Of a DNA stretch of 64,000 nt, positions 8,861 to 29,495 are shown piece after piece (position 1 is the stretch's first letter; every line of letters starts with the position of its first letter). The stretch comes from Deltaproteobacteria bacterium. GTDB lineage: Bacteria > Desulfobacterota > Binatia > UBA1149 > SPBQ01. The translations under genes and the position numbers were made by a program. Location: positions 62,001 to 126,000 of the forward strand of contig JAJCZM010000022.1 of the NCBI GenBank assembly GCA_029262375.1, read 5' to 3'. The notes under the pieces were generated by a model. The model was given only the letters and a program-made list of their open reading frames with translations, had not been told where the DNA came from and ran no database searches.

Positions 8861-8896
8861 CGGCAGCCGCCGTGACATGCGCGAACTGAGCTAAGA

Positions 8897-10378
8897 ATGG
8901 AGCAACGATCCCTATACCTGATTCGGCAGGCGCTCAATGCGGTCTTCAAAAGACGACGCATGGCGATCCTGCTGTTCCTGCTGATCTTTCTCCCCGTGAA
9001 TGTGGGCAGCATGTTTTCGCCGGCGCGCTATCGTGCGTCTGCGAAACTGATGCTGAACAATTCGAGGATTTACCCCGAAGTCTCGCCGCTCGCGCGTCAG
9101 GCATCCGTGGATCGTCCGCCGAACGAGACAAACATCAACAGCGAAGTGCAATTGCTGCGCAGTCGCGATCTCATGCGGCGCGTACAGTTCGAGCTGGAGA
9201 CGGCTGCGAAAGAGGCAGGTGAGGAAGATCGCGCGATCCCGGGAATCAAGTCGATAGAGAGCGGTCTGTCGGTTTTGCGTAAACCCGGGTCGAACGTCAT
9301 CGAAGTTGCGTTCCGAAGCGCCGACGAACAACTCGCCATCGATGTCGTCAATACGGTCGTCAGTCAGTACGCCGAGTACAGCATTGAGCAACATACTTCT
9401 TCAGGAGCCGTGGATTTCTTCCGCCGGCAAGCCGATGTTGCGCGAGTAGAGTTCGAGGAATCCGACCTAGACCTCGAGCGTTACGACGCCGCCCACGGAT
9501 TGACGTCGATCGCGGTCGAGAAAGACCAACTGCTCCGGCAGCGCGCACAGCTCGAAGCCGATCTGAGACGCACAGAGGCCGAGGTCACTGAGTTGGCCAC
9601 GAAGGCCGCTGCTTTCGAAGCGGAGTTGGTCTACATCCCGGAACACGAGGCCATCGAGGTCGACATGATCCCGAACCCTATGATCGGGTTCCTCCGCCAG
9701 AATCTCGCGCGGCTCGAGATGGAGCAGACGAAGCTGCTACGTCTCTATACTCCGCAGCATCGATTGGTGATGGACGTGGAGGCTGAGGTCTCGGCGCTCC
9801 AACAACAGATCGTCGGCGAAGAGGCGAGCATCATCGGCCGCAAACGTATGGCCACGACGTCCGTGCGGCGAGAGATCGAAGAGGATCTACTCAACGTGCA
9901 GGCCGAACTCGGCGCCCTAGAGGCACGTAGCGCTCTGCTCTCTGATCGAATGGGCGACTACGACACCCGTATCCGTGTGATGCACAGCAAGCACTATCAG
10001 GTGATGCGTCTTCGTAGAGAGCGCACAGAAAAGCGCCTCGCGTACGACACCGTGATGGGCAAGCTCAACCAGCTCGAAGTATCTGCGGCGATGGACCGTG
10101 CGGGCCTGGCCAATATGACTATCGTCGAAGCCGCGGCACCGCCTCTGCGTGCCGAACCCGACTTCAAGGGCGTTACTTTCGTGCTATCTCTGTTCGCCGC
10201 GCTGCTACTAGGTGTCGCATCGGCGGTTGTGACGGAGATGCTCAACCCAGTGATGAATAGCGAGATTGATATCAGGCACCATCTCGGACTTCCGGTGCTA
10301 GCAGAGATTCCTCTTAACGGGATCGATTCGAACGGTCGAAACGGAAACGGTCATGGCGACGGGGCGGAAGTAGGATGA
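8897..10378 (+). CDS. Wzz/GNVR-type chain-length determinant
   Basis: A 493-residue inner-membrane copolymerase. A transmembrane helix lies at about residues 18-35 (MAILLFLLIFLPVNVG) and a second near 430-450 (FVLSLFAALLLGVASAV). Between them is a long periplasmic region with coiled coils (for example LEADLRRTEAEVTELATKAA), typical of the GNVR subgroup of Wzc/Wzz proteins. It controls chain length and links export to the outer-membrane channel. It lacks a fused kinase domain; the separate BY-kinase-like gene overlaps its last codons (ATGA), the arrangement seen in split Wzc systems. Confidence 0.88.
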   Translation: MEQRSLYLIRQALNAVFKRRRMAILLFLLIFLPVNVGSMFSPARYRASAKLMLNNSRIYPEVSPLARQASVDRPPNETNINSEVQLLRSRDLMRRVQFELETAAKEAGEEDRAIPGIKSIESGLSVLRKPGSNVIEVAFRSADEQLAIDVVNTVVSQYAEYSIEQHTSSGAVDFFRRQADVARVEFEESDLDLERYDAAHGLTSIAVEKDQLLRQRAQLEADLRRTEAEVTELATKAAAFEAELVYIPEHEAIEVDMIPNPMIGFLRQNLARLEMEQTKLLRLYTPQHRLVMDVEAEVSALQQQIVGEEASIIGRKRMATTSVRREIEEDLLNVQAELGALEARSALLSDRMGDYDTRIRVMHSKHYQVMRLRRERTEKRLAYDTVMGKLNQLEVSAAMDRAGLANMTIVEAAAPPLRAEPDFKGVTFVLSLFAALLLGVASAVVTEMLNPVMNSEIDIRHHLGLPVLAEIPLNGIDSNGRNGNGHGDGAEVG

Positions 10379-11121
10379 GTAAGACCTACGAAGCACTGAA
10401 GCGCGCCGAGGCGCTCCGCGCGCGGCGTCAGGGCCAGACGACGACACCGGATGAAGTCGAAATGCCCATGGGCGGCGACATCGACTTGCCGGTCTCGGGT
10501 GCCGACGACTACTACGAACTGCGTCGAAGGCTGCTGGGCTCAGCGGTAGGCGATAGCGTTCGTACCGTACTCGTGGTCAGTCCTCTGCACGGCGAGGGCG
10601 CGTCGAACGTTGCTTGTCTTCTCGGCAAGGCCATGTCGGAGCGCGGCCGATCGCATGTCCTTCTCGTCGATCTCAACCTGCGCACACCTTCGCTCTGGCG
10701 TCTCATGCACGCCAAAGGGCGCGACGGATTCACGAGTGTTATCGCTGAGGATCGTCCCGTCGAAGACATCATGCAGGAGACCGAGTACGAAGGTCTCAAG
10801 GTAGTCACGGCCGGCAACGGCTACGTCGACGCCATCGATGTCATCGACAACCAGCGCACGTTGGATATCGTGAGCGACCTCGGTCGACACGCCGACGTCG
10901 TCTTCATCGATGCGGCGCCGGTGACACTGTATCCTGATGCACGCGCATTGGCTCCTCTGGTAGACGGCGTGATTCTAGTCGTCGAGGCCGATGTCACGCC
11001 GGTTAGCGTTGCGAATCGCGCCGTCGAACTCATTCGTGACACAGGAGCGAATCTTCTTGGAGTCGTGCTCAATAAGCGGCGCGACTACATCCCCGATCGC
11101 CTGTTGCAGCTGATCGGCTGA
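10375..11121 (+). CDS. BY-kinase-like (CpsD/Wzc C-terminal) protein with altered Walker A
   Basis: A 248-residue MinD/BY-kinase-fold protein that begins MSKTYEALKRAE, the usual opening of split polysaccharide kinases. The Walker A position reads SPLHGEGASNVA: the lysine that contacts ATP phosphates (GEGKS) is Ala, with codon GCG. Walker A-prime LLVDLNLRTPSL keeps the first Asp but has Asn at the second. Walker B reads VFIDAAPV instead of xIDxPP. The C terminus (NKRRDYIPDRLLQLIG) has no tyrosine cluster for autophosphorylation. It is therefore probably a non-catalytic partner of the GNVR protein, or uses a different mechanism. Overlaps the previous gene by 4 bp. Confidence 0.8.
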   Translation: MSKTYEALKRAEALRARRQGQTTTPDEVEMPMGGDIDLPVSGADDYYELRRRLLGSAVGDSVRTVLVVSPLHGEGASNVACLLGKAMSERGRSHVLLVDLNLRTPSLWRLMHAKGRDGFTSVIAEDRPVEDIMQETEYEGLKVVTAGNGYVDAIDVIDNQRTLDIVSDLGRHADVVFIDAAPVTLYPDARALAPLVDGVILVVEADVTPVSVANRAVELIRDTGANLLGVVLNKRRDYIPDRLLQLIG

Positions 11122-12677: not shown

Positions 12678-13901
12678 ATGGCGGGCAAATTAGCAACAGA
12701 TTCCAGTAGCGACGGCAGCAACGCGGCGCCGTCGCCGACGCGGCTCCCGGAGTTCCTCCCGTTTCATCGCCCTTCGATTACCGAGGCCGAGATCTCGGAG
12801 GTCGTCGATACGTTGCGCTCCGGTTGGCTGACTCTCGGTCCGCGTACACAGCGATTCGAAGAACAGTTTGCAGAGCGCGTCGGCGCCAAACGTGCCATCG
12901 GTGTGTCTTCGTGCACGGCCGGTCTACATCTGACGCTCGTTGCGATGGGAGTCGGGGAAGGCGACGAGGTCATCACCTCGCCGTATACGTTCCCCTCGAC
13001 CGTTAGCTCGATCCTGTACACAGGTGCAACGCCGGTTCTCGTAGATACGCTCCCGGATTATCCGAACATCGATCCCGAAGCCGTTGCTGCCAAGGTGTCG
13101 TCGAAGACCAAGGCGATCGTGCCGATCCATTTCGCCGGCGCGGCTTGCGATCTCGATCGCATCACCGAGATCGCTGAATCTGTCGGCGCTCGAGTTTTGG
13201 AAGATGCAGCGCACGCGCTTCCGACGACATACAAAGGGCGCACCGTGGGCGGTATCGGAGACGCTGCAGCGTTCAGCCTGTATGCCGGCAAGAACATGAC
13301 GACGGGCGAGGGTGGCATGGTGACCACCAACGACGACGCACTAGCCGACGAGGTCAAGTGTCTTCGCCTACACGGCATCTCGCGCGACGCCTGGAAACGC
13401 TACACCGCGGAAGGCAGCTGGTACTACGAAGTTTCGATGCTCGGTTTCAAGTACAACATGACCGACATTGCGGCGGCCATGGGGCTGCAGCAACTCGCGC
13501 GTCTCGACGAGATGCAGGAGCGGCGTATGCAGCTCATTCGTGCATACGACGGTGCGCTCGCGGGTATTGCCGGAGTCATACTGCCGAGACCCGCTGATTA
13601 CACCGAAAGCTCGTGGCACCTCTACGTGATTCGGATCGATCCTGACGTGATCGGCATGGGCCGATCCCAGGTCATCGAGGAGCTCAAGGCCGACAATATT
13701 GGCACGAGTGTGCACTTCATCCCGGCTCACCATCATCCCTTCTTTCAAGAGCGCCTGGGCTGTAAAGAAAGCGACTTGCCCAACGCGACCAGACTATTCG
13801 AGACCGCGATCTCGCTGCCGCTATTCCCCGATATGGAACTCGCAGCCGTCGACCAAGTGGCGGCGAGCTTGGCGCGTATTCTCGAGGAGAATCGACGATG
13901 A
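12678..13901 (+). CDS. DegT/DnrJ/EryC1/StrS-family sugar aminotransferase
   Basis: A 407-residue PLP-dependent aminotransferase that moves an amino group onto a keto sugar bound to a nucleotide. The PLP lysine is about residue 205 in LYAGKNMTTGEGG; the upstream VLEDAAHALPTTY supplies the pyridine-ring Asp. FHRPSITEAEISEVVDTLRSGWLTLGP is the usual opening but is preceded by about 30 low-complexity residues. With the Gfo/Idh protein at 16506 and the UDP-sugar dehydrogenase at 33118 it could form a WbpA/WbpB/WbpE-like route to a 3-amino uronic acid; that is inference. Overlaps the next gene by 4 bp. Confidence 0.9.
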   Translation: MAGKLATDSSSDGSNAAPSPTRLPEFLPFHRPSITEAEISEVVDTLRSGWLTLGPRTQRFEEQFAERVGAKRAIGVSSCTAGLHLTLVAMGVGEGDEVITSPYTFPSTVSSILYTGATPVLVDTLPDYPNIDPEAVAAKVSSKTKAIVPIHFAGAACDLDRITEIAESVGARVLEDAAHALPTTYKGRTVGGIGDAAAFSLYAGKNMTTGEGGMVTTNDDALADEVKCLRLHGISRDAWKRYTAEGSWYYEVSMLGFKYNMTDIAAAMGLQQLARLDEMQERRMQLIRAYDGALAGIAGVILPRPADYTESSWHLYVIRIDPDVIGMGRSQVIEELKADNIGTSVHFIPAHHHPFFQERLGCKESDLPNATRLFETAISLPLFPDMELAAVDQVAASLARILEENRR

Positions 13902-15319
13902 GCCCCGGTGCGGCACTAACGAAGCGTATCATCGACTTCGTCGTTGCGTCGCTGGCGTTGGCGGTGATCTGGCCGTTCTTCGTCATCATCGCGTTGCTGA
14001 TCAAGCTCGACTCGAAAGGACCGGTCTTCTTCCGCCAAGAACGCGCCGGCCAGGACGGGAGCGACTTCCGGATCTTCAAGTTTCGAACGATGATCGTTGG
14101 TGCGTATCGTAGTGGTGCGCGACTGACGGTGAAGCGGGATCCTCGAATCACACAAGTCGGCCAGGTCTTACGTTGGACCAAGCTCGACGAGCTGCCACAG
14201 ATTCTCAATGTCTTGCTCGGAGACATGGCACTGGTCGGTCCGCGTCCCGAGGATCCTTACTTCGTCAACTTCTACGGCGAAGAGAATCTCGATGTCCTAT
14301 CGGTCAAGCCCGGCTTGATTGGTCCGAGCCAGCTCGAGGGGCGTGACGAAGTCGAGATGTATCCCGACGGGGTCGAAGACACCGAGAAGTACTACATCGA
14401 GCACATCCTTCCTGAGAAGCTCGAGCGCGACCTGAACTACGTGCGCAACGCGACCGTCTGGGGAGACATCAAGTTCCTTGTGAGTGGCGCGTTCGGCGTG
14501 CTCGCCAGTCAGGTGAAGACGAGTTTCGTAGCTCGTTCCAAAGGGCGCCTTGCGCTGCTGAGCATGGACCTCGGGCTGATTGTCATCGCGTACATCGTGG
14601 CGAACTTCATCCATTTCGAGTGGAGTCTGCCGCCGGAAGCGTGGGATTACATTTTCCAGACCGCGTTCTGGTGCGTGCTGCTCAAGCCGCCGGTCCTCAT
14701 CTACTTCGGGTTGTACCAGCGCTCCGCGCGTTGGGTGGGGCGCCGCGATTTGGCTGCGATCGTCAAGGCGGTCGGTTTTAGTTCAGCGTTCGTCGTCGCA
14801 GTGACGTTCCTCAGCGGCCTGCAGGCCCACTCACGTGCTGTGTTCGTTGTTGACGCAACTATGTTGATCTTCCTGATGGCCGGTTTTCGGTTCACACTAC
14901 GTCATGTACTTAGTGGCGCGAGCAGGAACATCGACCGAGGTCCGTACACGCGGGTGCTGGTCGCCGGTTCCGGGCACGGCGGCGAAACGATTCTGCGTTC
15001 GCTGTTGGAAGACCCGAAATCGCGATTCCTGCCGGTGGGCATCATCGATCACGAACCCAATCGTTGGGGGGCATTGATCCACGGTATTCGTGTCATGGGT
15101 GGGGCGACCGATATCGCAATGGCCGCATCGACCCATGGTGTGGAAATGGTGCTAGTGTCGCTATCAGATATGGATCCGTCGGTGGTCCGAGATATCGCGG
15201 AGGCGTGTCGAAAGCTGGATATTGAATTCCGATTGATTCCGACCCTGTCGGACGTGCTCTCACAGGAGCAGACGGAACTTATTGCCACGACCACGCTGTC
15301 GCATGAGGGAAGAATATGA
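13898..15319 (+). CDS. phosphoglycosyl transferase fused to a membrane-Rossmann (CoA_binding_3-like) domain, inverted order
   Basis: A 473-residue fusion. Residues 1-195 are a monotopic phosphoglycosyl transferase (bacterial sugar transferase): entry helix RIIDFVVASLALAVIWPFF, catalytic Asp-Glu in TKLDELPQILN, and VGPRP. It moves a sugar phosphate from UDP-sugar to undecaprenyl phosphate and so starts the repeat unit. Residues about 215-345 hold four hydrophobic helices and 348-473 a Rossmann-like domain (TRVLVAGSGHGGETILRSLL). In WbaP/WcaJ proteins the membrane and Rossmann parts come first and the transferase last; here the order is reversed. The second half also equals the N-terminal half of FlaA1/WbpM dehydratases without the dehydratase. 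The ATGA overlap with an SDR gene may be meaningful. Confidence 0.85.
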   Translation: MSPGAALTKRIIDFVVASLALAVIWPFFVIIALLIKLDSKGPVFFRQERAGQDGSDFRIFKFRTMIVGAYRSGARLTVKRDPRITQVGQVLRWTKLDELPQILNVLLGDMALVGPRPEDPYFVNFYGEENLDVLSVKPGLIGPSQLEGRDEVEMYPDGVEDTEKYYIEHILPEKLERDLNYVRNATVWGDIKFLVSGAFGVLASQVKTSFVARSKGRLALLSMDLGLIVIAYIVANFIHFEWSLPPEAWDYIFQTAFWCVLLKPPVLIYFGLYQRSARWVGRRDLAAIVKAVGFSSAFVVAVTFLSGLQAHSRAVFVVDATMLIFLMAGFRFTLRHVLSGASRNIDRGPYTRVLVAGSGHGGETILRSLLEDPKSRFLPVGIIDHEPNRWGALIHGIRVMGGATDIAMAASTHGVEMVLVSLSDMDPSVVRDIAEACRKLDIEFRLIPTLSDVLSQEQTELIATTTLSHEGRI

Positions 15320-16398
15320 GTAGCGCCGTTTTGAAGAAGGGTGACGTAGTGTTGGTAACGGGGGGCGAAGGATACGTCGGCTCCCACCTCGTCCGGATGA
15401 TGTTGGCGAAAGGGTACCGTGTGCGCGTCCTCGATACGTTCCTCTTCGGCAACGTGGGACTGAGCGGGTGTGCCGAAGATCCGAATTTGGAAATCGTACA
15501 CGGCGACATCTGCAACATCCGCGACATGATTCGCTGTACGAAGGACGCGAAGGCCGTGATCGCCTTAGCCGCGCTCGTCGGCGATGCCGCTTGCGATCTG
15601 AATCACGATGAGACTGTCGCGATCAATATCGAATCCACGAAGATTCTGAGCAATGTCGTGCAGCTGACGCCCTCCATCGAGCGCGTCGTGTTCGCTTCGT
15701 CCTGCAGCGTTTACGGTGCGACGGAGGGGCTCATCCTTAACGAAGGTTCGCGCCTGAACCCGGTCTCGTTTTACGCTCGTAGCCGCATCGTGTCCGAGGG
15801 GATTTTGGCGCGTGAACTCGACGATCGATCGGTGGTTACGCTGCGTCTCGGCACCGTGTTCGGTGCCTCCGAGCGGATGCGCCTCGATTTGATGGTAAAC
15901 ACGATGACGCATCGAGCGGTCACCACCGGCCAGATTACGGTGACCGGCGGTGAGGCATGGCGTCCGCATGTTCACGTTCGCGACGTTGCTCAGGCGTTCC
16001 TGCTTGCCGCAGAAGCGCCCCACGAGAAGGCGAGCGGCGAGACCTTCAATGTTGGCTCCGACCAGAACAACTTCACGATATCGGAAACGGCCGTCATGGT
16101 TGCCGCGCAGATTCCGGGTACCAACATCGAGTACCACGACGTCGTCGAAGATCTGCGTAGCTATCGCGTGAGTTTCGACAAGATTCGTCACGTCCTGGGC
16201 TTCGCGGCACGATACCGTATCGAAGACGGTGTGCGTGAGGTCCAGAGCTTGCTCGCGCGCGACGATTTCGACGCGAACAACCCCGTATATTCCAACCTGA
16301 AATCCCTAGATACCTATGGATTCACCGGCGTCGCTGCGTCGCTACAGCCTGAGGTAGCGGCCGAAGAAGCCGTCGCGGGTGGTTCGGCCGCGAGCTAA
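15316..16398 (+). CDS. NAD-dependent epimerase/dehydratase-like SDR with Arg in place of catalytic Lys
   Basis: A 360-residue extended SDR. The nucleotide-binding motif is VTGGEGYVGSH (about residues 14-24). The Ser of the triad is in FASSCSVYG, but the YxxxK motif reads FYARSR: the lysine that orients NAD and lowers the Tyr pKa is Arg (codon CGC). GGEAWRPHVHVRDVAQAF is the usual substrate-domain motif. It may still work on a sugar nucleotide with altered activity, or be a binding protein. It overlaps the sugar transferase fusion by 4 bp, which suggests their products act together, much as a split WbpM-like protein would. Confidence 0.8.
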   Translation: MSSAVLKKGDVVLVTGGEGYVGSHLVRMMLAKGYRVRVLDTFLFGNVGLSGCAEDPNLEIVHGDICNIRDMIRCTKDAKAVIALAALVGDAACDLNHDETVAINIESTKILSNVVQLTPSIERVVFASSCSVYGATEGLILNEGSRLNPVSFYARSRIVSEGILARELDDRSVVTLRLGTVFGASERMRLDLMVNTMTHRAVTTGQITVTGGEAWRPHVHVRDVAQAFLLAAEAPHEKASGETFNVGSDQNNFTISETAVMVAAQIPGTNIEYHDVVEDLRSYRVSFDKIRHVLGFAARYRIEDGVREVQSLLARDDFDANNPVYSNLKSLDTYGFTGVAASLQPEVAAEEAVAGGSAAS

Positions 16399-16505
16399 CG
16401 ACCTGCGCGGTCGTTCGGCGACCGGTAACCGAAGTTTCGGATTTATATGTCGGATGCCGCTCGGCGAGCGGTGCCGTCGTATAGTATGCTGCCCACCGGG
16501 CACAG

Positions 16506-17585
16506 ATGGTGATGAGCGAAGCACGTCCAGATACATTGAAAGTGGGAGTCGTCGGTGGCGGAACCATCGCCGAGACCCATGTTCCCTACATTCGAGCTGC
16601 CGGCGGCGAGATCGTCGCTGTTTCGGACCTGTCGGTTGTGGCCTCCAACGACCTGGCCGACCGATTCGCGATACAGAAGATCCATCGTTCGGTTGAAGAT
16701 CTGATCGAGGTCGAGCGCCCCGATGTCATCCACGTGCTGACTCCGCCGCATACGCACGCGGCGGTCGCTATTGCGGCTCTCGAGCGCGGCGTGCACGTGC
16801 TCGTAGAGAAGCCGATGGCGTTGGATCCCGACGAGGTCGATCGCATGGCCGCGGCGGCCAAGGCCGGCGGAGCCATGCTCACCGTGGATCACAACCGATT
16901 GTTCGACCCGGTCATGCTCGAGGCCCGTCGCCTGGTCGAGAGCGGTGAGATCGGCGATCTCGTTGCGATCGAAAGTTATCAGGCTGGAACGGCCAGCGAG
17001 CGCGCCTGGCTCAGTACGCTCCAGGGCGGAGGACTGGGAGATTTGGTTCCCCATCCGCTCTATCTGCAACTCGCGTTCCTTGGCGGAGTGCAGTCGATCC
17101 AATCGATGGCGATGGATCGCCAGGGCCGTGGGACGCCCGATGAACTTCGCGTGTTGATGCAGGGCGATGATCGTAGCGGCGTACTCACGATTTCGACGCA
17201 CGCGGTGCCGCACCTCAATACGCTCAAGCTCTGCGGCTCGAAGATGACAGTTGAAGTGAATCTCAACAACATGTCGCTCGTGCGTCGGCGCGACTATGAT
17301 GTCCCCAAGATTATCGGCAAACCGTTGCCGAACATCGACGAGTCCTACCAGCTTATGACTCAGGTCGTCGCCAATACCGTGAATTTCGTGCGCGGCAAGA
17401 TTCGCTACTACCCCGGCATGAAGACGCTGATCCAGCGATTCTACGATGCGATACGAGATGGCGGTGAGCCGCCTGTCAGCATTGAGCAAGGCGGGGAGGT
17501 CGTTCGCGTTACATCGGCGATCTGGGACTCACTGGCCCAGGCGGGAGCAGATCCACGCGCCGACCGTGTGGAGGCGGCGCGATGA
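16506..17585 (+). CDS. Gfo/Idh/MocA-family oxidoreductase
   Basis: A 359-residue NAD(P)-dependent sugar oxidoreductase. The Rossmann motif is VGVVGGGTIAETH near the N terminus, and the hallmark EKP is in VLVEKPMAL near residue 100. The C-terminal domain is of the GFO_IDH_MocA type. Two starts are possible, ATG 16506 or ATG 16512; no strong ribosome-binding site separates them. In the Pseudomonas WbpA-B-E pathway a member of this family oxidises C3 of a UDP-uronic acid before transamination, so this protein and the DegT protein at 12678 are a likely pair. The next gene overlaps by 4 bp. Confidence 0.87.
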   Translation: MVMSEARPDTLKVGVVGGGTIAETHVPYIRAAGGEIVAVSDLSVVASNDLADRFAIQKIHRSVEDLIEVERPDVIHVLTPPHTHAAVAIAALERGVHVLVEKPMALDPDEVDRMAAAAKAGGAMLTVDHNRLFDPVMLEARRLVESGEIGDLVAIESYQAGTASERAWLSTLQGGGLGDLVPHPLYLQLAFLGGVQSIQSMAMDRQGRGTPDELRVLMQGDDRSGVLTISTHAVPHLNTLKLCGSKMTVEVNLNNMSLVRRRDYDVPKIIGKPLPNIDESYQLMTQVVANTVNFVRGKIRYYPGMKTLIQRFYDAIRDGGEPPVSIEQGGEVVRVTSAIWDSLAQAGADPRADRVEAAR

Positions 17586-18565
17586 TTGCTTTCGTTACCG
17601 GTGCGACCGGCTTCCTAGGCAAGCGTGTTGTCAGGCGTCTACTTGATCGTGGTGACTCGGTGCGAGTGCTCGCGCGCGACGAGGCGAAAGCCGCGGCAAT
17701 GGCCGAAGCCGGAGCCGAGGTCGTGATCGGCGATTTGTCCGATGTCGATGCGTTTCGCGACAAGCTCGCCGGTTGTGACGTACTCTACCACATCGGCGCG
17801 CGCGTACTCTCGCACGGTGATTGGGATGAGTTCGTTCAAGCCAACATCGTTGCCACTCAGAAGTTGATCGACTACGGGCTCGAAGTCGGCGTTTCACGCA
17901 TCGTGCATGTCAGCTCGATTGGTATCTTCGAAATCCCCGCAGACGGTGTCACGATTTCCGAAGAGACGGACTACGATCACCAGCCCGTTCTGCGCGGCTA
18001 CTACACGCGCTCCAAGATCGACGCGGACCGTATCGCGCGTGCGGCGCAGTCGACCGGTAAGCCGGTCGTCATCGTTCGCCCGGGACAGCTCTATGGACCG
18101 GATGCGCCCGAGCCGTTGTTCATGGGGCGTGTCAACAAGCGCATCGGGCCCGTACTGATAGTGGTCGGGACGCCAAGCTACTACGCGCCTCTCGTGTACG
18201 TCGAGAACGCTGCCGATGCGGTGGTGTCGGCCGGAATCGTCGAGGGGGTCGAAGGCCGCATCTTCAATGTGGTCGATGAATCCGATCTGCGTCAGCGCGA
18301 CTATTTCGAGGTGATCAAGCAGCTACCCGGGTATCCGAAGTTCATCATCTACTTGCCTGTGGGGCTCTTCATGCCGGCGGTGAACGTCGTCGATAAGATT
18401 TTCAAGACGTTGAAGCGGCGCGCGTGGTCTCCGGCGTACCAACTGCGACGTTCGGGGCGCAATGCGCGGTACGCGACTGACGTCGTTCGAAACACACTGG
18501 GCTGGAAGCCACGCCTGGCATGGCAGGAAGCCGTGCACGCGACGGCCACCGGTATCGAAAAATGA
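17582..18565 (+). CDS. NAD-dependent epimerase/dehydratase (SDR)
   Basis: A 327-residue extended SDR with an intact active site: GATGFLGKRVV at residues 7-17, Ser in VHVSSIGIFE and YYTRSK as YxxxK. The C-terminal part (VVDKIFKTLKRRAWSP) resembles the 3-beta-hydroxysteroid dehydrogenase or dihydroflavonol reductase-like branch rather than GalE. The substrate is probably a nucleotide- or lipid-linked sugar of the cluster. Overlaps by 4 bp with genes on both sides. Confidence 0.85.
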   Translation: MIAFVTGATGFLGKRVVRRLLDRGDSVRVLARDEAKAAAMAEAGAEVVIGDLSDVDAFRDKLAGCDVLYHIGARVLSHGDWDEFVQANIVATQKLIDYGLEVGVSRIVHVSSIGIFEIPADGVTISEETDYDHQPVLRGYYTRSKIDADRIARAAQSTGKPVVIVRPGQLYGPDAPEPLFMGRVNKRIGPVLIVVGTPSYYAPLVYVENAADAVVSAGIVEGVEGRIFNVVDESDLRQRDYFEVIKQLPGYPKFIIYLPVGLFMPAVNVVDKIFKTLKRRAWSPAYQLRRSGRNARYATDVVRNTLGWKPRLAWQEAVHATATGIEK

Positions 18566-19830
18566 AAATTCTCTACCTCGAAGCATCATCAGGGCAGGTT
18601 GTCGGTGGTTCGCTGACAGGCATGCTGCACCTGATCGGAGGGCTCGACCGCAGCAAGCACGAGCCTACCGTAGTGCTTTACGAGGAGAAGCCGGTCATCA
18701 AGCAACTCGCGGCGCGCGATATTCGTGTGCGTGTCTTCAGCAAGCGGCGCCTGCCGAAGGAACACTCGTTGCAGGAAGCCCCCGCGTATCACAAGGCGAA
18801 GGGGTACCCCGGCGTCACGCCGATTCTGAAGAACTTCCGCGCCGCAGGTACTTTCGTCTTCGAGACACTTCCGGCGGCATTGCGACTCTCGCGTATCTTC
18901 CGCGAGGAATCCCCCGATCTGGTCCACGTCTGCAACGGCTTTCGCGGGAACCTCGATGCAATCGTCGCGGCGCGAATCTGCGGCATTCCGTGCATCGTAC
19001 ACTGCAAGGGGTTCGACAAGCACAGCTTCATCGAACGGGCGTTCGCACCTGGTGTCGCCGCTGCGGTGTGCATGACTCGCGCTATCGAGGATCACTGCAA
19101 GAATCAGAAAGTCCGTCCGCCCGAGTACAGCGTCATCTATGACGGGCTCGATTTGGACGAATTCAAGCCTACGCGCGAGCGCGACGATGTGCGAGAGGAG
19201 CTGGGGATTGATTCCGACGCTCCGGTAGTCGGCGTCGTCGGCAATATTCAGGAATGGAAAGGGCAGCGTATTTTGCTCGAGGCCATGGTCGAAGTGACGA
19301 AGTCATATCCGGCCGCAGTTGCGATGATCGTCGGCGGAGCCCATCGCAGTGGGCGCCAGTACGCCGAGGGACTGCGCCAGTTCGTTGCGGACAACGGCCT
19401 TGGCGAGAACGTGATTTTCACGGGCGCGCGCGAGGACGTCAGCGATCTCATGCGATCGATGGATGTCGTGGCACACACGTCGATTCGAGGCGAACCGTTC
19501 GGGCGCGTCATCATCGAAGGCATGAGCGTCGGACGACCGGTAGTCGCGACGCGTGCCGGTGGTGTGCCCGAGTTCGTGCACGACGGTGACAACGGTCTGC
19601 TGGTCGCTGCAGGTGACGCGCCCGCGCTCGCGCGCACGCTCTCGCAACTGTTCGCAGACCCAGGACTCCGCGAGCGACTGTCGGCCGGTGCGCTTCGCGC
19701 CGTCCAAGGCTTCAGTGTTCAGCACCATGTCGAGGAGATGACCGCGCTATACGAGCGCGTCGCCGAGCGTTACGGAATTCCGATAGCGCGAAGGGCCGCA
19801 CGCCCGAGCGCGATCGGCCACAGAGCATGA
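18562..19830 (+). CDS. GT4 family glycosyltransferase
   Basis: A 422-residue GT-B transferase. The ATG at 18562 overlaps the preceding stop (ATGA) and gives a clean start MKILYLEASSGQ; a longer frame from 18520 only adds residues read from inside the upstream gene. Motifs include the glycine-rich acceptor loop VVGGSLTGMLHLI, VCNGFRGNLDAIVAARI, and the donor site RGEPFGRVIIEGMSVGRPVV with the EX7E glutamates. It presumably extends the lipid-linked glycan. It overlaps the HPr-kinase-like gene that follows. Confidence 0.87.
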   Translation: MKILYLEASSGQVVGGSLTGMLHLIGGLDRSKHEPTVVLYEEKPVIKQLAARDIRVRVFSKRRLPKEHSLQEAPAYHKAKGYPGVTPILKNFRAAGTFVFETLPAALRLSRIFREESPDLVHVCNGFRGNLDAIVAARICGIPCIVHCKGFDKHSFIERAFAPGVAAAVCMTRAIEDHCKNQKVRPPEYSVIYDGLDLDEFKPTRERDDVREELGIDSDAPVVGVVGNIQEWKGQRILLEAMVEVTKSYPAAVAMIVGGAHRSGRQYAEGLRQFVADNGLGENVIFTGAREDVSDLMRSMDVVAHTSIRGEPFGRVIIEGMSVGRPVVATRAGGVPEFVHDGDNGLLVAAGDAPALARTLSQLFADPGLRERLSAGALRAVQGFSVQHHVEEMTALYERVAERYGIPIARRAARPSAIGHRA

Positions 19831-20951
19831 CAGCCCCGGCGGACACTCAGCCCGTCGTCATCGAACTACACGGCGTGCGCCTCAGGCTGACGTCGTCGCT
19901 GCCGCTGTTCTGCGACTACGTTCGCCACACGATGCAGCCGTATGTGGTGGACACGCAACAGCCCGCCGATCTCGAGAGCCACCTCGACTGGATCGATGCG
20001 CCGCCGGCGCGCTCGCTGGAAGACGCGTTTCCGGGAGCTGGCTGGCGCAGTCGTCCGGATCGCGATCTCTACATCGACGGAGAGAAGCTATGCTGGCTTC
20101 GCATCGATGATTTCACCGATCTTCATCTTGCAGCCGCACATACCGGCGGGCGTCTCTGCGTCACAGGTCGATACTACTTTCAGATAGGTCGCGCACCATC
20201 GACCGAGTGGTTGCGCCGCCTGCGATATCGCGGCGATCTCGCGCGGCTTCAGGCTCGACGCTTTAGTACTTTGCTCTACTACCTGGTCTATCATCCGATC
20301 TTGTGGCGCCTCAGCCGAGACAGTGGCTGGAGTGTCGCGCACGGCGGCGCTGTGGCTACGCCTGACGGAGCGCTGGTGCTGTTCGGGATGCCCGGCTGCG
20401 GTAAATCGACCTTGAGTGTCGGATTGCTCGCGGATGCACGGCGCACGATGCTGTCCGATAACATAGTGCTTCATAGTCGCGAGCGAGTGCTTGCATGCCC
20501 CGAAGTCCTGTTGCTCGATGATCGGAGTCTCGAGCGCGCGGCCGGCGGCGCGGCTCATTTGGTGCCGACCGGTGAACGGCGCGTCTACGAGCGGGATGCT
20601 TACCGACCTGATCGCGTTGCGATGGAGCCGACTCCGCCCGCGGCGTTCTTCTGCGTAGAGCGCGCCCAGCGTACTCAACTCACCGAAATCACGGTCGACG
20701 AGTGCGCGCGGTTCGCGATCGCGGGTAACCAGTTGGCCAAAGAGGTTCGGCGCATCGCTATCAACAATGAGGTGTACGACCTCATCGCCGGCACGCAGGC
20801 GCCTGACGCAGGCGCCGACCTGCGTGCACTCGTGGCGAAGGCGCCCTGCTATCGGCTCTCGGTAGGCCAGGACGATTCTCTCGCCCGAGTTATCTCGGAC
20901 TTGATCGAGCCGGCACTTGCCGAGCATGCGGTCTCGGCGGTGGCCAAGTGA
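19827..20951 (+). CDS. HPr-kinase-like P-loop protein
   Basis: A 374-residue protein. The C-terminal two thirds resemble the HprK/serine-kinase fold: HGGAVATPDGALVLFGMPGCGKST places a P-loop near residues 187-194, followed by MLSDNIVL, where HPr kinases have the acidic SDD motif (here SDN). The N-terminal 170 residues have no recognised domain. Similar HPr-kinase-related proteins occur in exosortase and polysaccharide loci and in peptide-modification clusters, where the substrate is generally unknown. Here the gene sits between a glycosyltransferase and the flippase with 4-bp overlaps, so its product probably phosphorylates a sugar, a lipid-linked intermediate or a protein of this pathway. 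No phosphotransferase-system genes are nearby. Confidence 0.75.
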   Translation: MTAPADTQPVVIELHGVRLRLTSSLPLFCDYVRHTMQPYVVDTQQPADLESHLDWIDAPPARSLEDAFPGAGWRSRPDRDLYIDGEKLCWLRIDDFTDLHLAAAHTGGRLCVTGRYYFQIGRAPSTEWLRRLRYRGDLARLQARRFSTLLYYLVYHPILWRLSRDSGWSVAHGGAVATPDGALVLFGMPGCGKSTLSVGLLADARRTMLSDNIVLHSRERVLACPEVLLLDDRSLERAAGGAAHLVPTGERRVYERDAYRPDRVAMEPTPPAAFFCVERAQRTQLTEITVDECARFAIAGNQLAKEVRRIAINNEVYDLIAGTQAPDAGADLRALVAKAPCYRLSVGQDDSLARVISDLIEPALAEHAVSAVAK

Positions 20952-22310: not shown

Positions 22311-23465
22311 ATGTTGATCGAGGGGAACGCATCGGGCGACCGCAAGCCGCTGGAGATCGTCTACGTCATTGCTTCGATGATCGTCGGCGGAACGCAGACA
22401 CATCTGCTGCAAGTATTCCGCTTTCTGGACCGCGAACGCTTCCGGCCGCATCTCTTCGCTCTGCGCGACGGCGGCGGCTTGGTTTCGGCGGCTGAAGATC
22501 TCGGCGTCCCCGTAACGTCGTTCGGGATGCAGGGAAGTCTCAGGAATCCGCGCGATCTCGTTGGTATGTGGCGTATGCGCCAAGCGATGCGGACGCTTGC
22601 TCCCGACATCGCGCATACCTACCTCATGCGTGGAAATTTCTACGGCGCCATGGCGGCGCGTCTGGCCGGAGTACCGCGCGTCATCACGAGCAAGCGCGGA
22701 CACCACGACATCGCCGGTTGGTCCGAGCGCGCGGGGATTGCCGCGTCGAACCGGGCATCCGACGTCATTACGGGCAACGCGCCATCGGTCTTGGAGTTCA
22801 CCCGTGAGACCGAGCCGTGGGTGCGCGCTCCGATGGAAATGATTCCGAGCGGCATCGACACCGACAAATTCGATCCGTCGGGCTGCGACGATCTTCGCGC
22901 CGAGCTCTCGCTGGGGGATCGCCTCGTCGTTGGAACGGCGATCACGTGGCGGCCGCGCAAAGGCTTTCGGATGCTGTTTCACGCGTTCGATCTCGTGCGG
23001 CGTCGTCATCCGGATGCGGCATTGTTGATCGCCGGTGTGGAAAATTGGCACAGCGGTGACAGCGATCCGCGCGTGGTGGCGGAAGAGTTGGGAATCACCG
23101 ATTCCGTCTATCTACTCGGCCGTCGCGCGGACATGCCGCGCGTTCTCAAAACGTTCGACGTCTTCACGCTCCCTTCGCAGAGCGAGGGGATGTCGAATGC
23201 CGTTCTCGAGGCGATGGCGATGGCGCGGCCGGTTGTGGCGACCGCCGTTGGCGGGAACCCCGTGGTCATCGCGGAAGGTGAGAGCGGTTTCTTGGTCGAT
23301 TACCCGGATCACGCCGCGTTGGCAGAACGTTTGCTGCGCTATCTCGACGATGCGGGATTGCGCGAGAGCGCAGGCCGGCGTGGGCGTCAGCGCGCGGTTG
23401 AGCACTATTCGGCGCGCAGTATGGTCGCCCAAATGGAGGCGCTCTATTCGCGCCTGACGGGTTGA
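22311..23465 (+). CDS. GT4 family glycosyltransferase
   Basis: A 384-residue GT-B glycosyltransferase. VYVIASMIVGGTQTHLLQVF is the N-terminal acceptor-side loop; TSKRGHHDIAGW and the donor motif SQSEGMSNAVLEAMAMARPVV follow, with both glutamates of EX7E present. The ATG at 22311 lies 1 bp after the flippase stop. Presumed role is extension of the repeat unit; the sugar cannot be told from sequence. Confidence 0.87.
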   Translation: MLIEGNASGDRKPLEIVYVIASMIVGGTQTHLLQVFRFLDRERFRPHLFALRDGGGLVSAAEDLGVPVTSFGMQGSLRNPRDLVGMWRMRQAMRTLAPDIAHTYLMRGNFYGAMAARLAGVPRVITSKRGHHDIAGWSERAGIAASNRASDVITGNAPSVLEFTRETEPWVRAPMEMIPSGIDTDKFDPSGCDDLRAELSLGDRLVVGTAITWRPRKGFRMLFHAFDLVRRRHPDAALLIAGVENWHSGDSDPRVVAEELGITDSVYLLGRRADMPRVLKTFDVFTLPSQSEGMSNAVLEAMAMARPVVATAVGGNPVVIAEGESGFLVDYPDHAALAERLLRYLDDAGLRESAGRRGRQRAVEHYSARSMVAQMEALYSRLTG

Positions 23466-23598: not shown

Positions 23599-25467
23599 AT
23601 GGACTTCATTAAGCGTGTGGTCGCCGGCTGCGTCGGCGGATTCATCGGCGGCGCCATCGTCGGCGTCGACGAAGCGATTGTCGTTGCGACGGTCAGCGAT
23701 CTTACAGAGTTTTGGGCTTTCTGGTTCGGTGCGATTTCGTACGGTTTCTTCGGGGCCGTGATGGGCGCCGGGTGGGGTGTCGCGACGCTCGTCACCGGAG
23801 CCATCTTCAGCAAGCTCAAAGAGCTGCCCGTCGCGATGGGCTCTGCGGCCGGCCTCGTCGTCGCATTGCTCGGGATGGTTGTCGGACGTTTTCGCATCAT
23901 TCGCGACGTGTTCTCGGAAAGTCTCGCGATCGGCTCCACGGAAGGAATCATCGTTCACGTCGGCTTGGTCGTGTTCGGCGTCGTCGCATTCTTCGCAGTC
24001 ACCCGTCTCATGGCCGGGTCGGTAGAGAAGCGCGGCGCGGTAACGGCAGCCGGTCTGTGGGGCGGCGTCGTGCTCGGATTCGCTCTGATCGCATCGGTCG
24101 GCTTGACTGCGGTCGCCGGCGGTGAAGAGGCGGGGGACGCGGGCACAGCCACGGCGAAAGGCCCCAACGTTTTGCTATTCATTGCCGATACGACGCGTGC
24201 CGATCATCTCGGCCCGTACGGCGCGTCCGATGTGAAGACGCCGGCGCTCGATCAACTGGCGGCCGACGGCTTGGTCTTCAAGAACGCCTTCGCTCATTCC
24301 TCGTGGACGCGCCCATCGATCGCGACGATTTTGACGTCGATGTACGCGTCATCGCATCAGGTGATGCACAAGACTGATCTGTTGCCGGAAGACGTGGTTA
24401 CGATCGCGGAAGTACTGAAAGACGCCGGCTATCGTACGAGCGGTTTCGTCACCAACATCAACGTGGCGCCGTCGTTCAACTTCCAACAAGGCTTCGACAC
24501 GTACGAATATCTCTCTCCGTCGTTCTTCTTCGGTGCGACCGATTCCGGTTCGAAGTTGTCGCTATACAGCGGCATGCGGCTGATTCGTGAGCGCTTCCTG
24601 TCGAAGAACAAATACGTCGAGAGCTACTACCAAGACGGAGCCACGGTTAATGGGCGAGCAGTGCCGTGGCTCGATACGCATGGTACCCAGCCGTTCTTCA
24701 CTCTCATCCACTACATGGATCCGCACGATCCGTACTTTGAGATTCCATATAACGGCAAGGCCATTGCGCGTGTGGAAGATCCGCACCCTGATGGATCGCG
24801 GGCCGGCGAACTGCGTGATCTCTACATCGCGAACATCGAGTACCTCGATCAGTTCATTGCCGGTGTTCTCGATCAGCTGCGCGAGACCGGCGTATATGAC
24901 AACACGATCATCGCGTTCGTTGCCGATCACGGCGAAGAGTTCTACGAGCACGAAGGCTGGTGGCACGGCACGACGCTGTACGACGAGCAGATCCACGTTC
25001 CGTTGATCATCAAGCAAGCGAACAACGCCGGCGCGGGTGGGCGTATCGGAGATCTCGCAGGCATGATCGACGTACTACCGACGCTTGTGACCGCTGCCGG
25101 AGTCGACGTTCCCGCGAGCGCACAGGGGCGTGACCTGCTCGGCGGCACCAAGGTGCCGACGGCCGTCTATGCCGAAGAAGATCACGAGGGGAACATCCTC
25201 GAGTCCATCCGGTCGACCGAATGGAAACTCATCGTTGCCAACGAAGGGAATCCCCGAGGCGTCGAGCCGCTGGAACTCTACAATGTCGCCTCGGATCCGG
25301 GCGAGACGAATAACGTCGCTGCCGGCAAAGCCGACGTGGTCTCGCGACTTCAGGGTGAGTTGGATGCCCTGCGAACGCTCGCGGCCGCCAGCGCGGTAAG
25401 CGGTTCGGTGGGGGCACTGGACTCTGCCGACGAAGAGCGACTCAGAGCGCTAGGTTACATGGAGTAG
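23599..25467 (+). CDS. membrane-anchored sulfatase-fold enzyme with Thr nucleophile
   Basis: A 622-residue protein. The first 175 residues hold about five hydrophobic helices rich in Gly and Ala; residues 185-620 are an alkaline-phosphatase-superfamily catalytic domain facing the periplasm. Metal-site motifs are LFIADTTRADHLG and VADHGEEFYEH with WWHGTTLYDE. The nucleophile position reads HSSWTRPSIA, with Thr and not the Cys/Ser-x-P-S-R needed for formylglycine, so sulfatase activity is unlikely. Phosphotransfer (for example phosphoethanolamine or phosphoglycerol addition) or phosphodiester cleavage is more likely. The tail EERLRALGYME is shared with two other enzymes of the locus. A 133-bp gap precedes it, with aaagggaa ahead of the ATG. 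Confidence 0.8.
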   Translation: MDFIKRVVAGCVGGFIGGAIVGVDEAIVVATVSDLTEFWAFWFGAISYGFFGAVMGAGWGVATLVTGAIFSKLKELPVAMGSAAGLVVALLGMVVGRFRIIRDVFSESLAIGSTEGIIVHVGLVVFGVVAFFAVTRLMAGSVEKRGAVTAAGLWGGVVLGFALIASVGLTAVAGGEEAGDAGTATAKGPNVLLFIADTTRADHLGPYGASDVKTPALDQLAADGLVFKNAFAHSSWTRPSIATILTSMYASSHQVMHKTDLLPEDVVTIAEVLKDAGYRTSGFVTNINVAPSFNFQQGFDTYEYLSPSFFFGATDSGSKLSLYSGMRLIRERFLSKNKYVESYYQDGATVNGRAVPWLDTHGTQPFFTLIHYMDPHDPYFEIPYNGKAIARVEDPHPDGSRAGELRDLYIANIEYLDQFIAGVLDQLRETGVYDNTIIAFVADHGEEFYEHEGWWHGTTLYDEQIHVPLIIKQANNAGAGGRIGDLAGMIDVLPTLVTAAGVDVPASAQGRDLLGGTKVPTAVYAEEDHEGNILESIRSTEWKLIVANEGNPRGVEPLELYNVASDPGETNNVAAGKADVVSRLQGELDALRTLAAASAVSGSVGALDSADEERLRALGYME

Positions 25468-25469
25468 GC

Positions 25470-27134
25470 ATGATCCTGGTCGTCGCATGGGACGGCGCGT
25501 GTTTCGATGTCGTCGGGCCGCTACTCGACGACGGCCAACTCCCCGTGCTCGCATCGCTCATCGAAAGCGGGGCGTCGCGTGCGGTTCGGTCGACCGTTCC
25601 CGCCGTGACCTTCCCTGCCTGGTCTTCGTTCCTGACCGCCGCGCGGCCGGATCGTCACGGTCTCACCGATTTCACGATGCGTGACGGCTATCGGGTGCGT
25701 TTCATGAACGCATCGCATCGTCGCCTGCCCACGATGTTTGCCCAGCTCGACGCCTGCGGGCGCAAGTGCGGGTCGTACGCGGTGCCCTGCACATTCCCTG
25801 CGGATCCGATCGACGGCGTGATCGTTTGTGGCTTCGATACGCCACTCGGGTCCGGTCGCATGAGTCGGCGTACGCATCCGCCCGAGCTAGGCGACCGCAT
25901 AGAGAAGCGTTACGGGAGCCTCGCGGTCGATGGGCCGCAGCAGTCGCAAATTGGTGCCGGATGGCATGACGATGCGCTGGCTCAGATGAAGCGAGAGATC
26001 GCACTACGTACGGAGATTGTCGTCGATCTGATACGCGAAGGCCGGGCTGCTTCAGCTTGGGATCTTTTCATGGTGCACTACGGCGAGTCCGACACTGTCT
26101 CGCATCAGTTCTGGCAGTTCATCGACCCTCGATCTCCCCGCTATCGCGAAGGCGGTCCAAGCGACGCGCTCGCCGATGTTTACCGCGCCATGGACGGGGC
26201 GCTAGGAACGCTGATCGATGCGCTGCCCGCCGAGTCCAGCGTCGTGGTCGTATCGGATCATGGGTCGGGTGGCGCGAGCGATCGCGTGATTCACTGGAAT
26301 CGCTGGCTCGCCGATCGCGGGTGGCTGTCGTTCTCGGGTGCGCGAAGTGCCGGCGCGATGAGCTTGGCTCGGCGCGCGGCGTTGGCCCTGGTACCAACCT
26401 CGATGCAGGCCTCTGCGTTCGAGTCGTTTCCGAAGTTGGCGGGCGCCGTCGAATCGGGGCATCGACTCGGAGGTATCGATTGGTCGCGCACTCAGGTGTT
26501 CAGCGAAGAACTCAATTACTTCCCCGCGCTCTGGATCAATCGTCGAGAACGTGACCCGCGCGGTATCGTGGCGGAGTCGCGGACGTCCGAACTCGTCGAA
26601 CGGCTGCGCGCGCAGCTATTGGAGTTCGTCGATCCGTTTGACGGGCAACCGGTCGTCAAGCGCGTGCTCGAGCGAAGCGATGTCTATGACGGCCCGTATG
26701 CTGAGCGGGTTCCCGATCTGATTCTCGAGCTGCGAGATCCTGACGGGTACAGCTACAACGGCGCCTCGAGCAGGGCAGGACAGGAAACGGTGGCGTTGCG
26801 CCGACTGGACGACCCCGAGATGACGGGCGCGCGCGGCACGACGATGGCGGGTGCGCACCGCACTGAGGGTCTGTGTGTGATGCGCGGGCCGGCCGTCGAG
26901 CCGGGGTCTTACGTGACCGGCGATCTGCACGATGCGGGGGCAACAGTGATGGCCATGGCGGGCGTCACTGTGGCTGCGGGTGCCGACGGCCAGGTGTGGA
27001 CCGATGTATTGTCGGTAGGCGAGGGGGACTTGGTCTCGGGCTCGGCTGCCGTGCCCACTGCAGTTCGAGAGTACGACGCTGCTGAGGCTGAAGAAGTCGA
27101 GCGACGTCTGCGAGCTTTGGGGTACGTCGAGTGA
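25470..27134 (+). CDS. type I phosphodiesterase/nucleotide pyrophosphatase-like protein
   Basis: A 554-residue soluble member of the alkaline-phosphatase superfamily. LVVAWDGACFD supplies the first metal ligand, VPAVTFPAWSSFLTA the Thr nucleophile, VHYGESDTVSHQFW and VVVSDHGSGG further metal ligands. No signal peptide is visible, so it probably acts in the cytoplasm, perhaps on a nucleotide- or lipid-linked phosphodiester. The last residues VERRLRALGYVE repeat the tail of the enzymes at 23599 and 29492. The start lies 2 bp after the preceding stop, so the two are co-translated. Confidence 0.82.
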   Translation: MILVVAWDGACFDVVGPLLDDGQLPVLASLIESGASRAVRSTVPAVTFPAWSSFLTAARPDRHGLTDFTMRDGYRVRFMNASHRRLPTMFAQLDACGRKCGSYAVPCTFPADPIDGVIVCGFDTPLGSGRMSRRTHPPELGDRIEKRYGSLAVDGPQQSQIGAGWHDDALAQMKREIALRTEIVVDLIREGRAASAWDLFMVHYGESDTVSHQFWQFIDPRSPRYREGGPSDALADVYRAMDGALGTLIDALPAESSVVVVSDHGSGGASDRVIHWNRWLADRGWLSFSGARSAGAMSLARRAALALVPTSMQASAFESFPKLAGAVESGHRLGGIDWSRTQVFSEELNYFPALWINRRERDPRGIVAESRTSELVERLRAQLLEFVDPFDGQPVVKRVLERSDVYDGPYAERVPDLILELRDPDGYSYNGASSRAGQETVALRRLDDPEMTGARGTTMAGAHRTEGLCVMRGPAVEPGSYVTGDLHDAGATVMAMAGVTVAAGADGQVWTDVLSVGEGDLVSGSAAVPTAVREYDAAEAEEVERRLRALGYVE

Positions 27135-28502: not shown

Positions 28503-29495
28503 GTGACAGTGGGCGATAGCAGCGAAACGAAGACAGCAGGAAACGGGCGACCCGAGATCTCGGTCATCATCCCGGTATACAACGAACAAGAGACGCTCGA
28601 TGCGCTCATGGAGCGCCTGATCAGCGTTCTCGACGCTTTCGGTGAACCGTTCGAACTGCTGTTCGTGGATGACGGTAGCAGCGACAAGTCCCTGCAGATG
28701 CTGCGCGACTTTCACCTGGCCGATGCACGCATAAAATGCCTGAGCCTGTCGCGCAACTTCGGCCACCAAGTCGCCGTATCTTGCGGGCTCGATCATGCGG
28801 CCGGAAACGCCGTCATTGTGATGGACGGTGATCTTCAGGATCCGCCCGAAATACTTCCGGACCTCGTCCGTAAGTGGCGCGAGGGATTCGATGTCGTCTA
28901 TGCCGTTCGCCAGCAGCGCAAGGAAAACGTCCTCAAGCGCGCTGCGTATGCGTCGTTCTATTGGCTGCTACATCGCGTCTCGTACCTCGACATTCCGCTC
29001 GATAGCGGTGACTTCTCGCTGATGGATCGGCGCGTCGTCGATCTGCTCAGCCAGATGCCCGAGCGCAATCGCTTCGTACGCGGACTGAGGACTTGGGTAG
29101 GCCTGAAACAGACTCCGTTTACTTACGAACGCAGCGCCCGCTTTGCCGGTGAGTCGAAGTACGGTCTGACCAAGCTCATGCGATTGGCCTTCGATGGCTT
29201 GGTCTCCTACTCGTTCGTGCCGCTTAGGCTCGTGAGCAACCTCGGTATGCTCGTCTCGCTATCGGCGCTGGGCTACATGGGTTACCTGATCGTGGACCGG
29301 TTCATCGGCGGGCGCGGTACGATCGAGGGCTGGACGTCCACGGTTGTCATTCTTCTGTTCATCGGCGGCGTACAGCTGCTTTCGCTCGGCATCATCGGCG
29401 AATACATCGGGCGTATCTTCGATGAAGTGAAGCAACGACCGCAGTATGTCGTCGGTGAGCGAATCGGTCTGGAAAGCGAGGAGCGCTCGCAGTGA
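28503..29495 (+). CDS. GT2 glycosyltransferase with two C-terminal membrane helices (GtrB/ArnC-like)
   Basis: A 330-residue GT-A transferase. VIIPVYNEQETLDALMERL opens the domain, VDDGSSDKS binds UDP, VMDGDLQDPPE holds the metal-binding DxD-type motif. Two transmembrane helices near residues 240-262 and 275-300 match the GtrB/ArnC/DPM1-with-TM subgroup that loads a sugar onto undecaprenyl phosphate. Such enzymes commonly feed a periplasmic GT-C transferase; the GT-C-like protein at 31481 is the obvious candidate. GTG start; the next gene overlaps by 4 bp. Confidence 0.87.
   Translation: MTVGDSSETKTAGNGRPEISVIIPVYNEQETLDALMERLISVLDAFGEPFELLFVDDGSSDKSLQMLRDFHLADARIKCLSLSRNFGHQVAVSCGLDHAAGNAVIVMDGDLQDPPEILPDLVRKWREGFDVVYAVRQQRKENVLKRAAYASFYWLLHRVSYLDIPLDSGDFSLMDRRVVDLLSQMPERNRFVRGLRTWVGLKQTPFTYERSARFAGESKYGLTKLMRLAFDGLVSYSFVPLRLVSNLGMLVSLSALGYMGYLIVDRFIGGRGTIEGWTSTVVILLFIGGVQLLSLGIIGEYIGRIFDEVKQRPQYVVGERIGLESEERSQ

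Follow-up and report, generated by a model that had tools for sequence, protein, structure and literature searches.

An atypical HprK-like protein in a Wzx-type glycan locus of Candidatus Binatota: a candidate accessory glycan kinase

Introduction

What does a protein resembling HPr kinase (HprK) do inside a glycan locus? The question is raised by a gene of the lineage Candidatus Binatota, which lies between a glycosyltransferase gene and a flippase gene in a stretch of 64,000 nucleotides that was analysed as a whole (the window). HprK-type kinases with demonstrated substrates act, as far as the excerpts of the sources extend, on serines of proteins or peptides, and the subfamily described here offers a bounded case in which a new class of substrate can be tested. 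We know of no glycan kinase of HprK fold. Among open-licence full texts, no paper was found that describes a Wzx-type glycan locus with an HprK-like kinase.

A preliminary description of this DNA had placed an HprK-like protein, with no tie to the phosphotransferase system (PTS), in a glycan locus and had connected it to three phosphoesterase-fold enzymes as a sign that phosphate groups are handled there. This interpretation was partly supported: by profile comparison the protein is HprK-like, it is not PTS-related and it is tied to the glycan locus, but the connection to the phosphoesterases was not supported. Probably, the kinase decorates the sugar chain, or a protein building it, rather than regulating sugar uptake.

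Results

The gene and its locus

The open reading frame at 19827-20951 on the plus strand encodes 374 amino acids and is a real gene. At its start, the ATG and the TGA of the upstream GT4 gene, which ends at 19830, share 4 bp (ATGA); at its end, the TGA (20949-20951) and the flippase start codon GTG at 20948 likewise share 4 bp (GTGA). Both overlaps had been noticed before and were measured here at the gene ends. In eight out of eight pairs dN/dS ranged from 0.09 to 0.27 (NG86; the values are rough for two pairs with dS >1), which indicates that the gene is under purifying selection. The protein consists of a family-specific N-terminal domain (about residues 1-165) and an HprK-like kinase domain (about 166-370), the latter with H172, the Walker A motif GMPGCGKS at 187-194 and an SDN motif at 210-212. 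When searched against its own genome it matched only itself at E 10 or better. The features of the locus are as follows:

8078..11121, plus strand: three genes, for a Wza-like exporter, a Wzz-like chain-length protein and a ParA/Wzc-like ATPase
12678..13901, plus strand: DegT/DnrJ-type aminotransferase, a core gene in most versions of the locus
13898..15319, plus strand: initiating polyprenyl-phosphate glycosylphosphotransferase (Bac_transf), with its domains in swapped order
15316..16398, plus strand: NAD-dependent epimerase/dehydratase, a conserved core gene used as locus marker
16506..17585, plus strand: GFO/IDH/MocA-type sugar dehydrogenase, a conserved core gene
17582..18565, plus strand: HpnA-like sugar epimerase, a conserved core gene
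18520..19830, plus strand: GT4 glycosyltransferase (PF00534, 4.6e-35), the most constant neighbour of the kinase; the codon model favours a start at 18562
19827..20951, plus strand: member of the HprK-like kinase subfamily, 374 amino acids, assigned from profile matches, alignment and conserved residues
20948..22309, plus strand: Wzx-like flippase (PF01943, 5.5e-16)
22311..23465, plus strand: GT4 glycosyltransferase, conserved in the locus
23599..25467, plus strand: sulfatase-fold enzyme of the alkaline-phosphatase superfamily, hydrophobic in its N-terminal part and with Thr at the nucleophile position; like the next enzyme, it does not track the kinase
25470..27134, plus strand: type I phosphodiesterase-fold enzyme, which does not track the kinase
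29492..31453, plus strand: second sulfatase-fold enzyme, with Thr at the nucleophile position

Membership in the HprK-like superfamily

In the Pfam scan, the kinase protein matched no family at E 0.01. In the NCBIfam scan it matched TIGR04352 (HprK_rel_A) over residues 170-225 with an E value of 1.3e-7 and 31 bits, against a cut-off of 200, and TIGR04355 (HprK_rel_B) with an E value of 0.0043 and 16 bits, far under the cut-off of that model. TIGR00679, the HprK model with a curated cut-off of 240 bits, was not matched at E 0.1. In none of 58 genomes did a protein exceed the curated cut-off of TIGR04352 (200 bits).

Profile-profile comparison with hhalign was more informative. An alignment of 14 subfamily members (A1) was compared to eight other HprK-like proteins (A2), seven of them from the same class, which match the same TIGR04352 and TIGR04355 models, and to three true HprK proteins above the cut-off (A3), from genomes reached via L021, L023 and L027. 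A1 and A2 aligned with a score of 133 over 232 columns, that is, over most of the kinase domain. Since P-loops by themselves yield spurious similarity, residues 182-198 were masked; the same 232 columns then still scored 79.9, compared with 11-18 for five column-shuffled A2 profiles. With the true HprK proteins, A1 scored 49.8 over 67 columns, which fell to 17.8 upon masking. Shikimate-kinase-type P-loop proteins served as a negative control and scored 77.7 unmasked and 13.9 masked. As this control exceeded true HprK in the unmasked comparison, the unmasked HprK score shows nothing beyond the P-loop. The A1-A2 score, by contrast, outlasted masking, which places the kinase in the HprK-like superfamily, where it sides with the stand-alone members. 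From these profiles, then, the C-terminal 230 or so residues belong to the HprK-like superfamily, and any direct similarity to canonical HprK is confined to the neighbourhood of the P-loop. The preliminary description thus read the gene, the HprK-like half and the glycan-locus setting correctly.

Two AlphaFold2 models had mean pLDDT values of 33.6 and 37.0, too low for a fold comparison. Searching solved structures by sequence and profile was uninformative, with generic P-loop proteins only among the matches listed. The negative control derived from a set of candidate relatives, L021-L027, which was rejected: its readable frames (L022, L024-L027) look shikimate-kinase-type and share the word GMPGCGKS. 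A fusion of glycosyltransferase and kinase, suggested by long open frames in L028 and L041, was discarded as well, the extra part being an out-of-frame reading of the neighbouring gene.

Active site residues

The catalytic residues of HprK are His140, Lys161, Asp179 (proton acceptor/donor) and Arg245, and its Mg ligands are Ser162 and Glu204, according to the accessible part of PMC9399212. Residues were surveyed in 23 subfamily sequences, comprising 21 full or nearly full ones, one open piece (G011) and the fragment of G044; the latter was left out at the SDN positions, where its frame departs, leaving 22 readable members. H172, G187, G190, G192, K193 and S194 were invariant in 23/23 sequences, including the equivalents of His140, Lys161 and Ser162. 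D211, which precedes the Asp179 position, was D in 20 and E in two of the 22 readable members. The Asp179 position itself was occupied by N in 13, T in four and S in five, and by D in none. At the same site, DD was found in 8/8 A2 proteins and in 3/3 A3 proteins. The SDN in place of SDD noted earlier at residues 210-212 is therefore a family-wide trait, the second Asp being lost in 22/22 readable members. Further charged residues are conserved specifically in this family, among them R79, D94, D95, R131, E226, D231, R279, R308 and R309, some of them N-terminal. Judging from the alignment, the missing base may mean that the acceptor does not need deprotonation (a phosphate or carboxylate), that another residue serves as base, or that catalysis was lost.

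Partners of the phosphotransferase system

A Pfam scan of 30 ORFs between 71 and 39575 of the window revealed no PTS gene. In the host genome, which is 87% complete so that absence is not proof, HPr (PF00381) reached at best 14.9 bits against a cut-off of 23. The best HprK (TIGR00679) match had 12.2 bits, under the cut-off and at another place than the kinase gene, and PqqD (PF05402) reached 16.4 bits against 23.4. The absence of PTS genes nearby, claimed before for the surroundings of the gene, thus extends to a genome-wide lack of HPr and HprK matches over cut-off.

Distribution and gene order

Of 148 genomes of the class Candidatus Binatota, 23 contain a member of the subfamily, 22 as a long match and one as the fragment of G044. 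Eleven further genomes of the class matched around the P-loop only, with 36-46 bits, and were counted as having other HprK-like proteins. Among 198 genomes drawn from the phylum, six matched, two of them (G020, G085) weakly. No relative was found in viral contigs. Many of the surveyed genomes are fragmented and incomplete, and genes of relatives were called from tblastn and a simple codon model.

The same GT4 gene adjoins the kinase in 19 of the 23 members and the Wzx gene in 17; the locus is present alongside the kinase in 20. Eleven members belong to the taxonomic order of the window, with the conserved series GT4, aminotransferase, initiating transferase, epimerase, GFO-type dehydrogenase, HpnA-like epimerase, GT4, kinase, Wzx, GT4. 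GT4, kinase and Wzx are consecutive in all 11; the aminotransferase was undetected in G009 and G010, and the stretch of G011 ends before it. Eight members elsewhere in the class have the same locus arranged as (Wzx)-kinase-GT4; in six of them the Wzx gene adjoins the kinase. The gene order around the kinase is inverted in six members outside the window's order. Of the remaining four members, G056 carries the kinase with a methyltransferase gene off the locus, and G031, G051 and G044 have no such locus around the kinase.

For a count over all 148 genomes, the epimerase at E <=1e-90 was used as locus marker (a cut chosen by us within a list compiled at 1e-60). Kinase and marker occurred together in 20 genomes, the kinase alone in three, the locus alone in six and neither in 119. 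Four weaker marker matches between 1e-60 and 1e-90, two of them in G031 and G051, were not counted as locus.

Losses of the kinase

In G006 the GT4 gene ends at 10758 and Wzx starts at 10840 of L099; the 81 bp between them bear no trace of a kinase, and no kinase was found elsewhere in this genome. Four genomes belonging to a single genus (G030, G050, G294, G295) lack all three of the methyltransferase, Wzx and kinase genes between the HpnA-like and GT4 genes. In G301 other genes occupy the kinase site, by eye ketosynthase-like and acyl-carrier-like. Six genomes thus retain the locus but lack the kinase, which makes the kinase dispensable for the locus and points to an accessory tailoring function. 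The stretch between the HpnA-like and GT4 genes holds other apparent tailoring cassettes in G301 (L098:5118-8260) and G300 (L087:2822-7766), with ketosynthase-, ACP-, sulfotransferase- and ligase-like genes by eye.

The methyltransferase partner

The partner of the kinase is a SAM methyltransferase (PF08241, PF13649), encoded beside the kinase, or one gene or short block away, in nine members. Its family was detected in 12 of the 148 class genomes (E 1e-20) and, in this class scan, in no genome of the window's order, the 11 with a kinase and among them the window's own included. Outside that order, 11 genomes had both genes, one the kinase only (G044), one the methyltransferase only (G330) and 122 neither. 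When the 14 locus-bearing genomes outside the window's order were considered, nine had both, five neither and none had one alone. Fisher p-values were 3e-14 outside the order and 5e-4 for the locus-bearing genomes, both calculated with shared ancestry ignored. The two genes lie on different contigs in G031 and in G051. In G056 they overlap by 4 bp and are on a different contig from the locus. Given these split sites and the joint losses of kinase and methyltransferase, shared descent alone is a poor account. The G056 pair (L038:6647-11439) is situated upstream of a hybrid histidine kinase gene, away from the glycan locus.

Discussion

Comparison with known kinases

The HprK-related kinases A and B (TIGR04352, TIGR04355) and the RiPP kinases (paeninodin type, LppK) share with the Binatota kinase a His-GAV strand, the Walker A motif and an Asp after the next strand; they are alignable over 232 columns and, as here, stand alone with no tie to the PTS. 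The Binatota kinase differs from them in its low match (31 bits vs a cut-off of 200), in the loss of the second Asp, which is kept by 8/8 compared proteins, in its distinct N-terminal domain with the invariant D94-D95 and in that no PqqD was found over cut-off. With HprK proper (TIGR00679) it has in common the equivalents of His140, Lys161 and Ser162 and mostly the Asp before Asp179, whereas Asp179 is replaced in 22/22, no HPr was found over cut-off and the likeness is limited to the neighbourhood of the P-loop.

In the part of PMC3482155 available, WbdD is described to phosphorylate and then methylate the terminal mannose of the E. coli O9a O antigen. A kinase and a SAM methyltransferase thus act in a polysaccharide pathway, and both are present here as two genes in 11 of the 12 members outside the window's order. 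However, WbdD combines a eukaryotic-type kinase domain and its methyltransferase in one fused protein and belongs to an ABC-transporter pathway; here, the kinase is HprK-like, the methyltransferase is separate and the flippase is of the Wzx type, and the methyltransferase is absent from the window's genome. The WaaP-type kinases for LPS core heptose, dealt with in the available part of PMC9138534, would be alike in that a sugar of the cell envelope is the target of a kinase. According to the same excerpt WaaP resembles eukaryotic protein kinases, whereas the Binatota kinase had no such match in the Pfam and NCBIfam scans.

Proposed function and alternatives

A kinase and methyltransferase pair in a polysaccharide locus recalls WbdD, and for this reason we favour an accessory kinase that would modify the glycan ahead of the flippase step. 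We tentatively propose, at somewhat less than even confidence, that this atypical HprK-like ATP-dependent kinase is an accessory tailoring enzyme of the Wzx-type Binatota locus that phosphorylates the lipid-linked glycan before export. On the cytoplasmic side, the kinase would use ATP to phosphorylate the lipid-linked repeat unit, most likely at the residue added by the adjacent GT4 enzyme, and the flippase would export the phosphorylated unit afterwards. In many relatives the partner SAM methyltransferase would modify the same product, possibly the phosphate itself. Phosphate would thus end on the glycan or its carrier; we infer this destination, along with the catalytic activity, the identity of the acceptor and the order of the steps. 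No such locus surrounds the kinase in G031, G051 or the G044 fragment, so its substrate may occur beyond this glycan as well. A bolder version, which we regard as unlikely, is that an HprK-type enzyme became a glycan kinase and, with a separate SAM methyltransferase as partner, independently invented a WbdD-like cap or decoration on the lipid-linked unit before Wzx export, working without the Asp base of HprK perhaps because the acceptor is already charged.

The kinase might instead regulate proteins, setting the rate of glycan output by phosphorylating Ser/Thr of the GT4 enzyme, the flippase or the initiating transferase, in the manner of HprK and HPr. That the characterised substrates of HprK-type enzymes are serines of proteins or peptides, in the parts of PMC9138534 and PMC13381572 available, and that GT4 and Wzx are the constant neighbours would suit such a role. 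It has to face, however, the GT4 gene that remains in six locus-bearing genomes without the kinase, the kinase that remains in three genomes where the locus marker was not matched at 1e-90 and a methyltransferase partner with no obvious place, and we hold it to be improbable. Doubtful, too, is a pseudokinase, that is, a non-catalytic ATP-binding or switch protein assisting the GT4 or flippase step. Replacement of Asp179, the proton acceptor/donor of HprK in the accessible part of PMC9399212, by N, T or S in 22/22 speaks for it, but the other ATP-site residues and the family-specific charged residues are kept, and co-occurrence with a methyltransferase suggests chemistry.

A RiPP-type peptide kinase with a still unrecognised precursor, comparable to the kinases known for paeninodin-type lasso peptides and for LPPs, appears very unlikely. 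The nearest detectable relatives are indeed HprK-like, L045 lies near asparagine-synthetase-like and small PqqD-like genes (by eye), and the available part of PMC13381572 reports LPP clusters embedded in glycosyltransferase-rich loci. Yet PqqD stayed under cut-off in the host genome, the 4-bp overlaps leave no space for an adjoining precursor, and the 30 ORFs scanned included no NTP transferase, macrolactam synthetase or leader peptidase. A true HPr kinase, of the PTS or a regulatory PTS, is already close to refuted and has next to no credence with us: the P-loop region resembles HprK, but this similarity fell to 17.8 upon masking, the matches were far under the cut-offs, Asp179 is absent and the genome held neither HPr nor HprK over cut-off, and the canonical role was rejected on these grounds. 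The natural gene losses and the one relocated kinase-methyltransferase pair are ready-made comparisons of glycan chemistry.

Other features of the locus

All three phosphoesterase-fold genes that had been reported for the locus were present in the Pfam scan. Their supposed link to the kinase was not supported: two of the three stay in the kinase-less G006, and none was detected within <=20 kb of the kinases of distant members. Both sulfatase-fold proteins, 23599-25467 and 29492-31453, carry a Thr (T-R-P-S-I and T-L-P-S-H) at the nucleophile position of the Cys/Ser-x-P-x-R motif of sulfatases, and are therefore probably not FGly sulfatases. Thr in place of Cys/Ser presumably fits phospho-transfer better than sulfate hydrolysis in both.

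In the initiating glycosylphosphotransferase (13898-15319), Bac_transf was located at residues 9-201 and CoA_binding_3 at 270-448, and the EPS_sugtrans model matched in two stretches, the C-terminal part of the model first. Relatives of this swapped-domain protein align along most of its length. A DAP_DH_C-type dehydrogenase gene lies between the epimerase and GFO genes at L028:14207-15202, and similarly in L029, L030, L036 and L099; the window lacks it (gap 16398-16506). Distant versions of the locus (L041:888-8235, L042, L043, L086, L088-L090 and L096-L102 except L099) contain genes for a carbamoyltransferase, an AlgX/SGNH-like protein and a large beta-helix protein, none of which was seen in the locus of the window.
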